Part shown: one piece after another, positions 1,830 through 10,986 of the stretch
Layout of the letters: each line of letters begins with the position of its first letter
How positions within the stretch are numbered: position 1 is the stretch's first letter
Assembly (NCBI GenBank): GCA_027669525.1
Contig: JAQEDJ010000055.1
Span: 1-11,279 of the forward strand
DNA from: Coriobacteriaceae bacterium AM48-5
Lineage (GTDB): Bacteria; Actinomycetota; Coriobacteriia; Coriobacteriales; Coriobacteriaceae
Length of the DNA stretch: 11,279 nt
Reading direction: 5' to 3'
The notes under the pieces: model-generated
The model's database searches: none
Told to the model about the DNA's origin: nothing
What the model saw: the letters and a program-made list of their open reading frames with translations, nothing else
Position numbers and translations under genes: made by a program

Positions 1830-3032
1830 ATGCAGATTACCTCAGGCCTGCCTGAAGGCTTTAATGCCGGTGCGTACGACATGATCGTTGTCGGCGCCGG
1901 TTATGCCGGTGCCGTATGCGCCCGCCGTCTTGCCGAAACTATCGGCTATCGTGTTGCCGTTTTGGAGCGCCGTAGCCACATTGCGGGCAATGCCTTCGAC
2001 TGCACTGACGAGGCGGGAATCCTGGTTCACGAGTATGGTCCGCATATCTATCATACCTTTAACGAGCGCGTGCATAACTTCCTGTCGCGCTTTACCAAGT
2101 GGACGGACTACCAGCACAAGGTGCTCGCCAACATCAACGGTACCCTTATGCCCGTGCCCTTTAACCATGCGAGCCTCAAGCTTGCCTTTGGCGATGAGCG
2201 CGGCGAGGAACTGTACCAAAAGCTCGTGGAGACCTTTGGCAAGGACGTCAAGGTGCCCATTATGGAGCTGCGTAAGAAGAACGATCCCGACTTGGCCGAG
2301 GTTGCCGATTACGTCTACGAGAACGTCTTTTTGCATTACACCATGAAGCAGTGGGGCCAGACGCCCGACCAGATCGATCCCTCGATCACCGGACGCGTTC
2401 CCGTCTTTGTGGGCGACGATGACCGCTACTTCCCGCAGGCTCCTTTCCAGGGCATGCCGCAGGACGGCTATACCGCGCTGTTCGAGCATATGCTCGATCA
2501 CGATCTGATCGACGTGTTCTGTGACGTAGACGCCCGTGACCTCTTTGAAATCGACGAGACCACCGTCAAGATCGACGGCAAGGTCTATGGTGGCGAGATC
2601 GTCTACACCGGTCCACTCGACGAGCTGTTCAACCTCGACTTGGGCGCTCTGCCGTACCGTACGCTCGACATGAAGTTCGAGACGCTCGATATGGACCAGT
2701 TCCAGCCCGTGGGCACCGTCAATTACACCACGAGCGAGGATTACACGCGTATCACCGAGTTCAAGAACATGACTGGTCAGGTCCTGCCCGGCAAGACCAC
2801 CATCATGAAGGAGTATTCTAAGGCCTATACGCCCGGCTCGGGTGAGACGCCCTATTACGCTATCCTGGAGCCCGAGAACCGTGAGCTCTACGAGCGCTAT
2901 CTTGAGCGCGTCCAGAACCTGACGAACTTCCACCCGGTGGGTCGTCTGGCCGAGTATCGTTACTACGATATGGACGCCGTGACCAATTCTGCCCTCGATC
3001 TTTCGGATGAGATTATCGCCTGCCATGCATAA
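1830..3032 (+). CDS. glf: UDP-galactopyranose mutase
   Basis: This FAD-dependent cytoplasmic enzyme converts UDP-galactopyranose to UDP-galactofuranose, the donor for Galf-containing surface glycans. The 400-residue frame is intact and of normal family length, with about 15 extra N-terminal residues before the Rossmann strand. Visible motifs are the FAD-binding VVGAGYAG (residues 20-27), ERRSHIAGNAFD (46-57), HEYGPHIYHT (67-76), TMKQWG (171-176), FQGMPQDGYT (206-215), YTGPLDELF (259-267), YTRITEFK (305-312, with the arginine that binds the UDP-sugar diphosphate in characterised enzymes), and the C-terminal GRLAEYRYYDM that closes the FAD site. AAGGAG at 1819-1824 supports the ATG at 1830. The stop overlaps the start of the next gene by 8 nt, so the two are almost certainly co-transcribed. 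Confidence 0.97.
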   Translation: MQITSGLPEGFNAGAYDMIVVGAGYAGAVCARRLAETIGYRVAVLERRSHIAGNAFDCTDEAGILVHEYGPHIYHTFNERVHNFLSRFTKWTDYQHKVLANINGTLMPVPFNHASLKLAFGDERGEELYQKLVETFGKDVKVPIMELRKKNDPDLAEVADYVYENVFLHYTMKQWGQTPDQIDPSITGRVPVFVGDDDRYFPQAPFQGMPQDGYTALFEHMLDHDLIDVFCDVDARDLFEIDETTVKIDGKVYGGEIVYTGPLDELFNLDLGALPYRTLDMKFETLDMDQFQPVGTVNYTTSEDYTRITEFKNMTGQVLPGKTTIMKEYSKAYTPGSGETPYYAILEPENRELYERYLERVQNLTNFHPVGRLAEYRYYDMDAVTNSALDLSDEIIACHA

Positions 3033-4055
3033 AGTCATAACATTCGGTATTCCCTCGTATAACGCCGCCAAGGACATGGACCATTGCATCACCTCCATCT
3101 TGGAGGGGAGCAATTACGCCACCGATATCGAGATCATCATCGTCGATGACGGCTCCAAGGACGAGACGGCCGCCAAGGCCGACGAGTGGGAGGCCCGTTA
3201 TCCTGGAATCATCCGCGCGGTGCACCAGGAGAATGGCGGCCACGGTATCGCCGTCCTCTCGGGCCTGCGTGAGGCGCATGGTACGTACTACAAGGTCGTT
3301 GACTCGGATGACTGGCTCGACGGTGCGGCGCTTTCGACCATGCTGTCGATTTTGCGTGGCTTTGAGGAGCGCGACCAGCGCGTCGACCTGTTTATCTCGA
3401 ACTACGTGTACGAGAAGGTTTACGAGGGCACGCATACCGCTATTGGCTACAAGTTTGCCCTGCCGCGCAAAAAGATTTTCTCTTGGGACCAGATCGGACA
3501 CTTCCGTCCCGATCAGAACCTGCTCATGCACAGTCTGTGCTATCGCACCGATGTGCTGCGCGAGTCCAATCTGCCTATGCCGGCACACACGTTCTACGTG
3601 GATAATATCTACGCATACGTGCCGCTGCCGCGCTGCAAGACCATGTACTACGCCGACATCGACCTCTATCGCTACTTTATCGGTCGCGAGGGCCAGAGCG
3701 TCAATGAGGCACGATGGTCAAGCGCCTGGGTCAGCAGTTCCGCGTAACGCGCATCATGATGGAATCGTTCCACCTGTACCAGGACGTTGAGTCCTCGCGT
3801 CTGCGTTCGTACATGATGGGCTACTTCACCATGATGATGGCGATTTGCTCGGTGCTCACCAAGCTTTCCGAGGAAGATTGTGCCGATGAGCGCCTGAAGA
3901 CGCTGTGGAGGGACCTGAAGGAGTACGACGAGCGCATGTATCGTCGCGCTCGCTACGGCGTGGTCGGATTCTTTACCAACCTGCATGGACGGGCCGGAGA
4001 CAAAACCACACTCGGCCTATACCATCTTGCCTCAAAGATCTTCAAATTCAACTAG
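3025..4055 (+). CDS. Family 2 glycosyltransferase linked to glf (one frameshift)
   Basis: A GT-A-fold, family 2 glycosyltransferase, corrected length about 343 residues. The N-terminal nucleotide-sugar domain is clear: TFGIPSYNAAKD (6-17), IIIVDDGSKDET (37-48), and the metal-binding DSDDWLD (93-99). The C-terminal half has no catalytic motif I can name and no clear membrane helix, so it probably acts at the inner face of the membrane. I chose ATG 3025 over the in-frame ATG at 3007 because the family begins right at the first beta strand and 3025 gives a typical short overlap with glf. One base is missing near 3707-3712: the frame ending GQSVNEA continues one frame over as MVKRLGQQFRVTRIM to the TAG at 4053-4055. 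Tight coupling to glf suggests a role in a galactofuranose-containing polymer, but donor and acceptor are not shown by the sequence. Confidence 0.92.
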
Positions 4056-4087: not shown

Positions 4088-4197
4088 GGCCCCTTGGCCT
4101 TTAGTTTGCTACTGCGAACAGTCCTGCTCGCACGGAAAGCACATTTAGTGCTTTCCGGCTCGTGCGGAACTTGTATCAAACTAAAGGCCAAGGGGCC
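4088..4197 (+). repeat. Structured palindromic element, copy 1, downstream of GT2
   Basis: The outer arms 4088-4108 and 4177-4197 are perfect 21-bp inverted repeats (starting GGCCCCTTGG and ending CAAGGGGCC). They close on TTTG...CAAA. Inside is a 68-nt core with its own stem: CGGAAAGCAC (4133-4142), loop ATTTA, GTGCTTTCCG (4148-4157), 10 perfect pairs. CGCA before that stem can pair with TGCG after it, leaving GCTCG unpaired. The element starts 32 nt after the GT2 stop. Its core is homologous to copy 2 read on the minus strand, so both copies point the same way as the gene they follow. It may be a 3'-UTR RNA structure, a terminator-like element or a small non-autonomous repeat. Confidence 0.85.
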
Positions 4198-4201
4198 TCT
4201 G

Positions 4202-4262
4202 CTATAAGTATCGATTCTGGGATTGTTTGAATTTGAAGATCTTGGACGCGCGGTACACAGGG
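4202..4262 (-). pseudogene. Possible 3' remnant of a second GT2-like gene
   Basis: Read on the minus strand, this short stretch encodes YRASKIFKFKQSQNRYL and a TAG at 4202-4204. The GT2 protein ends YHLASKIFKFN. At DNA level TTGAATTTGAAGATC (4227-4241) is the exact reverse complement of GATCTTCAAATTCAA (4036-4050), and similarity extends a few bases further into the gene side. No longer coding similarity is visible upstream of it. It may be the last trace of a paralogous glycosyltransferase gene that once converged on GT2, or a local inverted duplication. It is too short to be sure. Confidence 0.35.
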
Positions 4263-4291
4263 GCCTGGGCTGAAAGGGATCTGGTTGAGTA

Positions 4292-4416
4292 GGTTGCCCG
4301 GTGGGGCTTGGTTATGTTTGTCGCGAGTTCCGCACGAGCCGAAGAGCACTTAATGCGCTCTTCGTGCGAGCCAGGACTGTAGAGCAGCAAACATAACCAA
4401 GCCCCACCGGGCAACC
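4292..4416 (-). repeat. Structured palindromic element, copy 2, downstream of the P1 peptidase gene
   Basis: Perfect 29-bp inverted repeats at 4292-4320 and 4388-4416 (outer end GGTTGCCCGG, inner end TTTG/CAAA) enclose a 67-nt core. The core stem is CGAAGAGCAC (4340-4349), loop TTAAT, GCGCTCTTCG (4355-4364). On the minus strand the core reads ACAGTCCTGGCTCGCACG, the stem, then CGGCTCGTGCGGAACT, nearly identical to copy 1. The stem pairs differ from copy 1 at three positions and all three remain paired on the minus strand (G-C to A-T, A-T to G-C, A-T to G.T). The arm sequences are unrelated to those of copy 1. The element begins 12 nt after the peptidase stop. Confidence 0.85.
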
Positions 4417-4428
4417 GGTCGAGTGAGG

Positions 4429-5430
4429 TTATTTCGCGGCGCCGGGGATGCCGTGGGAGGTTTTGGCGTTTTTGGCTCCGTTTACGATGGCGGTCTGTAG
4501 GGCCCTTACGGCGAGCATGCCCAGCAGGTCTAGGGGAACGGCGGCGCTTGCCTGGGCGCCTAGTTTGCCGCTGGCGAGGGTGTAGATGGTGTCGCCGTCG
4601 TTGGTGGTGTGCGTGGGACGGATGGCGTGTGCGTAGGCGTCTGCGGCCATCTGGGAGACTTTGGTGGCTTGTGCCTTAGTGAGTTCCACGTTGGTGACGA
4701 TGCAGCTGATGGTGGTGTTGGTGCGGTCGAGCGGCATCTGCATGGATCCGGCGGCGGCAAAGGCTGCGAGCTCCATGTCGACGATCTGGTCGCTATCTGC
4801 TGCGGCGCGCATGCCGGCGACCCACTCGCCGGTGAAGGGGTCGACCACGTTGCCGCAGGCGTTGACCGAGACCACGGCACCCACCTTAACAGGACCGAGC
4901 GCCACGGCGGCAGCGCCTAGGCCGGCCTTCATGCAGGTGGCGGGGCCCATGAGCTTGCCCACGGTGGCACCGGTACCGGCACCTACATTGCCCTGCTCGA
5001 GCGTGGTGGGGGTGTTGTCGAGTGCCTCGCGCACGGCGGCGATGCCGGCCTCTATGTCGGGGCGAACGGTGGGGCTACCAAAGGCGAGGTCGAAGATACA
5101 GCTGGAGCACACGATAGGCACCTGCGTGGGGCCGACGGGAAGGCCGATGCCGTGGCTCTCGAGCTCGCGGGCGACGCCGCTTGCGGCCTCCAGACCAAAG
5201 GCCGATCCGCCCGAAAGGCAGACGGCGTGGACCTTGTCGACGGTGTTCTCGGGTCGCAGCAGGTCGGTTTCGCGCGATGCCGGGGCACCGCCGCGAACGT
5301 CAACGCCGCCGGTGGCGCCCTCGGATGCCACGATTACGGTGCAACCGGTGCCGGCCTCCTCGTCCGTGTAGTTTCCAAAGCAAAAGCCATCGACATCGCA
5401 AACGTCAATGGCCTCAAGCAGTGTATCCAT
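4429..5430 (-). CDS. P1-family (S58, DmpA/NylC-like) peptidase
   Basis: An intact 333-residue member of the DmpA/NylC-like N-terminal-nucleophile hydrolases, which cleave themselves once to expose a Thr or Ser nucleophile and then act as aminopeptidases or amide hydrolases. Typical features are GATGGVDVRGGAP (38-50), VHAVCLSGGSAFGLEAASGV (67-86), GNVGAGTGATVGK (147-159), GAVVSVNACGNVVDP (184-198) and RTNTTISCIVTN (236-247). The expected autocleavage is between N238 and T239. GSAFGLEAA and NVGAGTGA are hallmark motifs of the family. There is no signal peptide, so it should be cytoplasmic. The ATG at 5430 follows ATAGGAGT at good spacing. It lies 101 nt downstream of maf, with a hairpin between them, so it may be partly uncoupled from that operon. 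The natural substrate cannot be inferred. Confidence 0.93.
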   Translation of the reverse strand: MDTLLEAIDVCDVDGFCFGNYTDEEAGTGCTVIVASEGATGGVDVRGGAPASRETDLLRPENTVDKVHAVCLSGGSAFGLEAASGVARELESHGIGLPVGPTQVPIVCSSCIFDLAFGSPTVRPDIEAGIAAVREALDNTPTTLEQGNVGAGTGATVGKLMGPATCMKAGLGAAAVALGPVKVGAVVSVNACGNVVDPFTGEWVAGMRAAADSDQIVDMELAAFAAAGSMQMPLDRTNTTISCIVTNVELTKAQATKVSQMAADAYAHAIRPTHTTNDGDTIYTLASGKLGAQASAAVPLDLLGMLAVRALQTAIVNGAKNAKTSHGIPGAAK

Positions 5431-8249: not shown

Positions 8250-10644
8250 CTATTTCGTCTTGCCAGTAATGAGCGTCTTAAGGCCTAGTCCAATCAGGCC
8301 CAGGCCCATACGCACGCGACCGGGGCGATGACGCTCGATGGCCTTGGTCTTGCCAGCGGGCTTATCGCGACGAGCGCTCGTCTCGGGTGTGGGCTTGGTG
8401 ACCTGCGGCTTGGGCTGAGGTGCAGGTGTAGGCTCGGGCTCAATGACGGTCGCCTGGACCTTCTGAACCTCGGGTGTGGCTGGCTGCGGCTCAAGCGCAG
8501 GGGCGGGCTTTGCCTCGACGGCGGCCTCGGCGTTGCGATAGGCGCGCTCCAGCAGGGCTTCCTGCGAGTTGAAGGGTTTCTCACCCTCTGCACGCTCCAC
8601 GGGGACCCAGGTGCCGTCGCTCGTGAGGCTGCGGGCCTTCACGTTGTCGCGCAGCTGCATGCCCATGTACTCGTGCACCAGGCGCGGCAGGTGGGGTCGA
8701 GCACGGGGAAGGCGATCTCCACGCGGTGCTCGGTGTTGCGTGTCATCATGTCGGCCGAGCTCAGATAGATCATGTCCGAGTCCACGCCAAAGGCATAGAC
8801 GCGCGCATGCTCCAAAAAACGCCCGACGATGGAGCGCACGTGCACGTTCTCGGTCTTGCCCGGAACGCCCGGCTTGAGGCACGAGATGCCGCGGATGATC
8901 ATGTCCACGCGCACGCCGGCACAGGATGCCTCGGCGATCTTATCGATGACCTCGCGGTCGGTCAGCGAGTTGAGCTTAAAGAACACACGGGCGGGCTCGC
9001 CGGCGAGGGCGCGCTGGATCTCGCGATCCAGGCCGCGCATGATGAGCGGCTTGAGGCCCACGGGCGCCACGCCCAGGAAGCGGTAATCGCCGCGCAGGTT
9101 GCCCAGCGACAGGTTGCGGAAGAACAAGTTGGCGTCCTCGCCGATGCCGGGATGGGCGGTCATGAGCATAAAGTCGCTGTAGAGCTTGGCCGTCTTCTCG
9201 TTAAAGTTGCCGGTGCCCAACAGCGTCAGGCGTGTAAGCGCCATGCCCTCGCGATAGGTGAGCTGGCAGATCTTGGAGTGGCACTTAAAGCCTTCGGAGC
9301 CGTAGATGACGGTGCAGCCTGCCTCTTCCAGACGCTCGGCCCACTCGATGTTGTTCTGCTCGTCGAAGCGGGCGCGGAGCTCCATGAGCACCGTGACCTC
9401 TTTGCCGTTCTCGGCGGCATCGATCAGCGACTCGCACAGGCGGCTCTGCTTGGCCACGCGGTAGAGCGTGATGCGCAGTGAGATGCACTCGGGGTCGTAG
9501 GCGGCCTCGTGCACCAGATCCAGGAAGGGGTTCATAGCCTCATAGGGATAAAAGAGCAGCTTGTCGTGCTGAAGTACCTGCTCACGGATGGAGCGAGCCA
9601 TATCGATGGTGGGGTTGGGCTGCGGCTTAAACGGCGTAAAGAGTAGCTCGTTGCGCAGGTGCTCGGGAATCTTGCCCTCAATGCCGAAGACATAGTCCAG
9701 GTTGAGCGGGATATCGCAGGTAAAAACCGAGCGGCGCGAAAGCTCGAGCGCTTTGCGGATGGTCTTGAGCGTCGCCTTCTCGAGCGAACCGGAGACGGCA
9801 AGCACCACCGGCTGCAGGCGCAGACGCTTCTTGAGGATGCGCTTCATGTGCTGGCGGTAATCCTCTTCCTCCTCGACGCCCTCGCCGTCCGGGTCGATAT
9901 CGGCATTGCGGGTGACGCGGATCAGCGCGCGGTCGAGTGGCTTGTAGGAGCCAAAGCAGCTGTCCAGGCAGGCGAGGATGACGTCCTCGAGCAAGATGTA
10001 GGAGTAGGTGCCGGTGGGCGAGGGAATCTCGACCACGCGGTTCATCGAGGCGGGATCTCGATAAGGCCCAGCAGGCTCTCCTCGTCCGTAACGCCGTCCA
10101 GACCGCAGGCCAGATAGAGCGCGCCGTTGCGCAGGTTGGGGAAGGGGTGGCGCGGGTCAATGACCAGCGGCGAGATGACCGGTGACACGTAGGCCTGGAA
10201 GTAGCGGGTGACAAAGGTGCGTTCCTCGGGCGTAAGCGAATCGATACGAGCGCGGTGAACGCCCAGGGCGTCGAGTTGGCCCTCGATGCTCTTGAAGATG
10301 GTCTCCCAGCGGGTAAGGAGCCCGGGCATTTCGGCCATGACGGCATCGACCTGTTCGGAGGCGGTCATATTGCTCTTGTTGTCGACAGGCTGTTTTTTGA
10401 GCTCTGCCAGGTCGGACAGGCCGCCCACGCGCACCATGAGAAACTCGTCGAGGTTGGACTCGAAGATCGACACGAACTTGAGGCGCTCAAACAGCGGAAC
10501 GGTCTCGTCGAATGCCTCGTCAAGTACGCGGTTGTCAAAGCGCAGCCAGCTAAGCTCTCGGTTTTGCGTATACGAAAAATCACGCGGCGGCTTGCGCAAC
10601 TTGGCGGCCTTTTGCTTCTTTTCGATTTTGCTCGGCATATGCAT
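8250..10644 (-). CDS. ppk: Polyphosphate kinase 1 with long Pro/Ala-rich C-terminal tail (two frameshifts)
   Basis: PPK1 reversibly transfers the ATP gamma-phosphate to inorganic polyphosphate through a phosphohistidine. Corrected length is about 798 residues, against about 690 for typical PPK1. The N-terminal blocks QNRELSWLRFDNRVLDEA and ESNLDEFLMVRVG are diagnostic. So are FYPYEAMNPFLDLVHEAA, SLRITLYRVAKQSRL, GFKCHSKICQL (phosphorylated His near 456), LGTGNFNEKTAKLYSDF, FLEHARVYAF (second active-site His near 613) and YLSSADMMTRNTEHRVEIA. The core ends near residue 705. About 93 residues follow, rich in Pro, Ala, Glu and Lys, closing with a basic Gly/Leu-rich end, RMGLGLIGLGLKTLITGKTK. Single-base losses near 10051 (ATCCCGGCCTCG) and 8693-8696 (GACCCCCACCTG) split the frame. 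The start is uncertain among TTG 10680, ATG 10644 and ATG 10638; none has a strong ribosome binding site, and 10644 is used here. Confidence 0.94.
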
Positions 10645-10986
10645 CTGTCCGTTCAGTCCCCGCAGGGGACGATAGCCCAACTCTATTTACTATTGTCTCA
10701 ATTTAGTCGCCCGCTGGCACGGACGTATCGCGCGAACGGTATCTTTACCTACTTCTTACGATGCCCGGCCATAGAACTAACGCTCGCGACACTAATGCTA
10801 GCGTTCAATATTCTCACTCAACTGATAAGGATGCGTGAATAAGAATGATGGCAAGCTGAATATCATCGAATTCGGTCCAAAACGTGGGCTAGCTTCATTT
10901 ATATACATAAAACCGTTTTACCTATGCAATTCTGAATCATGGATTTATAGATGCGATGGGGGATAATTTATAGGAAAAAGAGCGTT

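Follow-up and report, generated by a model that had tools for sequence, protein, structure and literature searches.

The stretch of DNA analysed here (the window, 11,279 nt, contig JAQEDJ010000055.1 of Coriobacteriaceae bacterium AM48-5) contains two palindromes with related centres and unrelated but perfectly paired arms. How long stems of RNA and DNA keep perfect pairing while their sequence changes is a long-standing question. Copy 1 (4088..4197, + strand) consists of a left arm (4088..4108) and a right arm (4177..4197) that pair perfectly over 21 bp (96% over 25 nt), on either side of a conserved core (4118..4171; ACAGTCCT, inner hairpin, TGCGGAACT), and lies in the sense of a glycosyltransferase family 2 gene (3007..4055, + strand), 32 nt from its stop codon (4053-4055). 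Copy 2 (4292..4416, - strand) has, in the sense of the element, a left arm at 4388..4416 and a right arm at 4292..4320 (29 bp, perfect) and a core at 4326..4380, and lies in the sense of a peptidase S58 (DmpA-like) gene (4429..5430, - strand), 12 nt from its stop codon (4429-4431). The two cores, being in opposite orientations, are 82% mutually complementary over 56 nt. This arrangement of inverted cores within perfect, unrelated arms had been described in an earlier note on the same DNA, together with the closeness of both copies to stop codons in the sense of the gene and three inner-stem differences between the copies (G-C/A-T, A-T/G-C and A-T/G.T), and all of this was confirmed; the G.T pair belongs to copy 2, and relatives with the same core type have A-T there.

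Some further features of the window were recorded in passing. The glycosyltransferase gene is read as two overlapping frames (3007-3747 and 3714-4055), whereas in the relative G108 it is a single 349-codon frame, and overlapping or abutting frames are also present at 561-1597 and 8639-10680, where one gene each is expected; these breaks suggest indel errors in the contig or frameshifts. The last codons of the glycosyltransferase gene (4029-4051) are repeated in inverted orientation 175 nt downstream (4227-4249, 91%), outside copy 1 and in relatives too, which may be the leftover of an inverted gene end or of an older snap-back.

The window copies are members of a dispersed palindromic element of Collinsella and its relatives. 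The element has an asymmetric conserved core (ACAGTCCT, inner hairpin, TGCGGAACTCGC) within arms specific to the site and allele. Among 45 aligned sequences, in which the constancy of ACAGTCCT and GCGGAACTC is by construction because these were the search anchors, near-invariance was also seen for GCTC, which precedes the 5' anchor, and for T and GC, which surround the 3' anchor. A structure drawn by hand allows AGTCC and GGAACT to pair with one A bulged out, and a 6-against-1 internal loop lies between this helix and the outer arms.

The window itself belongs to Collinsella: among the 80 matches listed for the neighbouring peptidase S58 protein, 20 loci of this genus (L001-L019 and L025) encode it with 95-98% identity. 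Further copies were sought by pattern searches with the core. Because the search patterns were exact, copy numbers are lower bounds, and a lone match in a genome could be due to chance. The pattern matched 18, 5 and 3 times in three Collinsella genomes (reversed-pattern control, 0). In a sample of 197 genomes of the order it matched in 70 (control, 3), and in a sample of 396 genomes of the phylum in 18, 17 of them already in the order sample (control, 1). In G108, a single-contig 2.3 Mb chromosome of the genus Collinsella, 29 core copies were counted, allowing at most one anchor mismatch per core and removing matches inside genes, so the family is far from being confined to the two window copies. 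In the plasmid collection a single record matched, from Collinsella aerofaciens (0.9 Mb), at 18 places; the phage collection gave no match. Pattern matches in two viral-contig searches (13 and 46) were taken as chance because none of these 59 places has paired arms (best arm score 11.5, none reaching 12). Copies from Collinsella fall into few inner-stem subtypes; those of G040 and G172 have a different inner stem with many compensating variants, and their arms are shorter and less perfect. The Rfam scan suggested by the earlier note was run, and the element had no match: the covariance-model search of the window at E up to 1 returned no family, and that of seven element-bearing tiles at the gathering score returned only three tRNAs. 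No description of the element was found in the open-access papers listed by literature searches. It can be described as a dispersed extragenic palindrome whose centre is conserved and whose site-specific arms appear to homogenise each other.

Both the element pattern and the pairing of its arms exceed chance. Among 140 distinct alleles, 123 have distal arms that pair with each other and 17 do not; cross-site control pairings succeeded in 3 of 2000. Covariation, which the earlier note had proposed to check, was scored on 22 of the 45 sequences (Collinsella-type and related), after removal of redundant entries and of those shifted by one base. The score was 0.496, against 0.174 for shuffled alignments (reached by none of 500) and at most 0.139 when the pairing was slid, so paired positions covary beyond the controls. 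The numbers of cells paired and of cells changed on both sides exceeded all 500 shuffles; changes on both sides were seen at 16 of 18 pairs of the outer helix, but this count was reached by 37 of 500 shuffles, and the count of pair types by 182 of 500, and neither is unusual.

The behaviour of the arms was followed at orthologous sites. Between G001 and G108, 12 of 18 copies could be placed between matching flanks (for five of the other six one flank was missing, and the flanks of L100 are 14.7 kb apart), and the element was present in G108 at all 12, in the same orientation at 11 and with the core inverted at L117. Sorted by eye, the arms are entirely different and yet self-complementary in both genomes at five sites (L097, L105, L107, L112 and L117), a block differs at two (L103 and L113), one arm differs at L110, and four sites are alike. 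When 187 elements were grouped by their flanks, individual sites proved to hold arm classes, with unrelated classes between near-identical flanks. Over 129 orthologous pairs (leaving out pairs with flanks below 80% and site group 0, which holds 80 of the 187 elements and merges several double sites by shared flanks), the left flank beyond 60 nt was 0.91-0.98 identical and the right flank 0.84-0.94, compared with 0.81-0.87 for the arms, so that the arms stand out clearly against the left flank but modestly against the right. In pairs of different arm class at least one arm drops to about 0.3-0.8, and because the alignment was gapped, these values overestimate how alike unrelated arms are. Site 8 illustrates the pattern, with a left flank 100% identical, arms at 0.71 and 0.67 (gapped alignment) and a right flank at 0.89. 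Part of the arm divergence is age, because right flanks between arm classes are also more diverged (0.81-0.94 between and 0.97-0.99 within classes at site 8; 0.81-0.84 and 0.93-1.0 at site 7). The distal arms are otherwise specific to their site, two pairs of Collinsella site groups having a few 14-mers in common. A search of the site groups and G108 for an ectopic donor of a new arm class yielded only short matches: the arms of nine elements share 16-mers with other places in G108, and for one of them, L135 (site 12), the match lies close to the orthologous site in G108.

Rearranged and hybrid alleles were also found. At site 15 the genome carrying L342 and G108 share flanks and arms, but the core is inverted between them; a similar inversion suspected at site 5 was not counted, since the L094 copy does not align with the G108 copy and may be the other copy of a double site. 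L004 shows a snap-back: at the site that corresponds to copy 1 of the window, the left half recurs in inverse orientation in place of the right half. Among the 20 window-like loci, the site-2 copy of L011 has lost the core and one arm, and in G108 only a partial core remains at the site of L108. By a two-sided test, 4 of the 17 unpaired alleles are hybrids of two arm classes; another four, at multi-allele sites, miss this test, and nearly all of the remaining nine lack a comparison allele at their site. One of the four that miss the test, G108 2234370, has a left arm that pairs with the right arm of another allele.

Judging from these sequences, replication template switching (quasipalindrome correction) appears to account for the arms better than selection on RNA pairing alone. 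Template switching is described in PMC8604942 as homogenising repeat arms and inverting spacers, and in PMC8794818 as proposed to create and maintain RNA stems. Arm homogenisation, spacer inversion and snap-back, the signatures of a template-switch substrate, are all present in the natural alleles. The palindrome would fold into a hairpin during replication, and the polymerase would use one arm as template for the other, or copy part of the core in this way; a single-arm change would then be erased or transferred to the opposite arm, leaving the arms perfect while their sequence drifts. Recombination between alleles within the common core would produce mismatched hybrids, and later copying would restore perfection.

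Mismatches were counted in 163 of 190 sequences with an arm score of at least 14 (148 distinct, from related strains). In the distal arms G.T or T.G occurred 67 times and A.C or C.A 54 times, and within arm classes G.T 14 times and A.C 17 times, so that no G-U preference over A-C was found in either; this speaks against selection on one RNA strand, which should favour G.U. The earlier note had offered strong selection for pairing as one of two readings of the perfect arms, and this is not supported, given the missing G-U preference in the distal arms and the unpaired hybrid alleles. Within arm classes 13 symmetric replacements and 43 unpaired states were counted over 756 paired positions, and such symmetric changes lie far above the expectation from independent hits (by our own estimate well under one); this excess alone is not decisive because selection for pairing would give it too. 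Within 18 nt of the core A.C mismatches outnumber G.T (31 versus 6), which counts against copying, because copying should erase a conserved mismatch. The template-copying account also leaves the change of the first arm unexplained, because no donor beyond short matches was found.

Position relative to genes was examined in G108, with genes taken from a purpose-written gene caller. Where the nearest gene 3' end lay at most 110 nt from the core, 16 copies were sense and 2 antisense; beyond 110 nt, 2 were sense and 8 antisense, and one copy lay between divergent genes. The contrast between near and distant copies has P of about 0.0005 (one-sided hypergeometric, by hand). Placement and orientation relative to genes are thus not random, and the view of the earlier note that the element acts in the sense direction at transcript 3' ends is matched by the orientation of the near copies but is too simple as a whole, because antisense orientation prevails farther away (8 of 10). 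The distance from the stop codon to a sense palindrome is often 8-30 nt. The genes that precede sense copies have ordinary functions (anaerobic ribonucleotide reductase, valine-tRNA ligase, peptide deformylase, polynucleotide phosphorylase, GatB and others); neither these functions nor the folding of the two strands speaks for a role in RNA. Some elements of G108 form facing pairs whose starts are separated by 206-283 bp (731392/731661, 1555128/1555411, 1636127/1636410 and 313965/314171), also between tandem genes. A strand-specific role at transcript ends is likely on this evidence. Its simplest form would be an mRNA 3'-end hairpin recognised via its internal loop, because the core is conserved and copies near stops are biased to sense; the mutational account covers the arms, but neither core conservation nor this bias. 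In a weaker part of the scheme, a transcript of a gene with the element just past its stop would carry or end in the long hairpin, the conserved internal loop (GCUCRRACAGUCC / GGAACUCGC) would be read by a putative RNA-binding factor or nuclease, and this factor would protect or define the mRNA 3' end. For the distant antisense copies, a function in divergent transcripts is conceivable, as is an origin by template-switch inversion.

Other palindromes of G108 came to light alongside the element. A second family, with site-specific arms and the core AACGTCCTCG...CTGCGGAATGTT, occurs for example at 213827, 310332, 951186, 1280277 and 1352534, with several copies directly past a gene end, and shares TCCT...TGCGGAA with the core of the main element. 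At 310332, 13 of 17 relatives carry two self-complementary allele classes, and the other four lack both the palindrome and about 100 nt of one flank, which may reflect deletion or insertion. In arm change the second family behaves like the main element. Further small groups with differing arms and other cores are present (709797 and 1618992; 358438 and 1791962; 1525884-1527315; 373687, 451432 and 1215956), as are, in many places, MITE-like repeats with conserved ends (AGTTGCGGTGAAATA..., GAGAGTGGATAATCTCCC..., TCTCGATCTGTAACA...).

On balance, we consider it probable that the element is a largely vertically inherited dispersed palindrome of Collinsella's order, with arms rewritten by replication copying and, less firmly, with a role at gene 3' ends. 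The earlier note had offered a conserved structured RNA or a mobile palindromic element; lineage restriction, multiple copies, covariation and sense bias near 3' ends were borne out, but not selection on the arms or insertion. A conserved structured RNA at mRNA 3' ends, in which selection for pairing keeps the arms perfect while their sequence drifts freely, would account for the covariation, for the near-gene sense bias and for palindromes that begin shortly past stops. It is nevertheless unlikely as the whole explanation: distal mismatches lack a G-U preference, the sense strand has no folding advantage over the antisense strand (70 of 150), unpaired hybrids occur, arms change as paired blocks next to little-altered flanks, and distant copies are mostly antisense. 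That the elements are unusual intrinsic terminators, formed by a long hairpin without a T tract, is quite unlikely. The location past stops agrees with it, and hairpin-plus-T terminators were found at 2 of 15 gene ends where a sense element is adjacent, at 3 of 9 where the element is distant or antisense and at 220 of 772 others, small numbers in which depletion at element-bearing ends (2/15 against 220/772) is weak. Against it, no T tract follows the palindrome, as noted earlier for the window copies and now found across 139 elements (mean T fraction in the next 10 nt 0.27; six or more T in 5%); a terminator does not require a conserved internal loop, and distant copies are in their majority antisense.

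A still active mobile palindromic element (MITE or REP-like) inserting near gene ends, possibly into existing palindromes, would explain why copies are dispersed and numerous, with few inner-stem subtypes in common, why those of G040 and G172 occur in both orientations, many within tight gaps, and, by analogy, why the second-family palindrome is missing with its flank in some relatives at one site. Contig 22 of G172 also carries an element and a Y1 transposase-like frame about 1.5 kb apart (41034-41089 and 42564-42920). This reading is rather improbable, however, since Collinsella strains share sites, arms are hardly common between sites, and no clean empty site was seen for the element, the losses at L011 and in G108 at the L108 site being deletions. 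A further point against it is that no Y1 (IS200-like) transposase was found in G040, which is rich in copies (32 by a looser pattern). Taken together, the Y1 matches give a mixed picture: besides the frame near an element in G172, the two Y1 transposases of G108 (760 kb and 881 kb) are about 28 kb or more from the nearest element, and the stretches around four of six Y1 matches (L410-L413) contained no core-like motif. Nor do the sites examined support insertion of a TTTG...CAAA unit into existing palindromes: none of them showed an empty perfect palindrome, and the sole coreless palindrome, in L004, is the snap-back rearrangement. There is, finally, a slim chance that template switching is triggered or guided by the core, through fork stalling or binding of a repair factor for example, and that the element is thereby an order-wide, self-renewing palindrome which rewrites its own arms and keeps the gene-end hairpin.

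In PMC8794818, the strongest evidence for template switching in the maintenance of short stems is called circumstantial. With many orthologous sites of replaced arms, together with inversion, snap-back and hybrids in related strains, the mechanism could be traced event by event in this family. Strong covariation, usually taken as proof of a functional RNA, can partly stem from DNA copying.

Like the present element, ERIC elements and MITEs are intergenic and palindromic, about 100-150 bp long; in those the ends are the conserved part, whereas here the ends vary between copies, and terminal inverted repeats common to copies were not found among those from Collinsella (cross-site pairing 3/2000). 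Integron attC sites have R and L boxes at their ends and are used with an integron integrase, whereas the conserved part here is internal, not terminal. Collinsella-1 RNA (RF01700) is entered in the table in PMC2864571 as a candidate RNA from Actinobacteria and the human gut, and differs in that the window matches no Rfam family at E up to 1. The palindromic candidate RNAs of the human microbiome, described in PMC8040213 as structured palindromes on both strands, some of them not predicted terminators, resemble the element as structured palindromes, and it may be identical with one of them. As in REP/BIME with RAYT transposases (PMC3733652, PMC2817692), the element is a dispersed extragenic palindrome that sometimes forms facing pairs; unlike them, it has arms that vary between copies, longer stems and no constant foot tag (GTAG or CGTC), the arm ends differing between sites in the printed arms inspected by eye, and one copy-rich genome (G040) has no Y1 transposase. 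With the mixed picture from Y1 matches, membership of REP/RAYT is unsupported. The closest likeness in behaviour is to quasipalindrome correction, with which (PMC8604942, PMC8794818, PMC7202029) it shares homogenised arms, spacer inversion, snap-back and paired multi-base changes. It differs from those cases in that the mechanism is read here from sequence alone, and in being a natural dispersed family in which whole arm classes are swapped around a conserved core.
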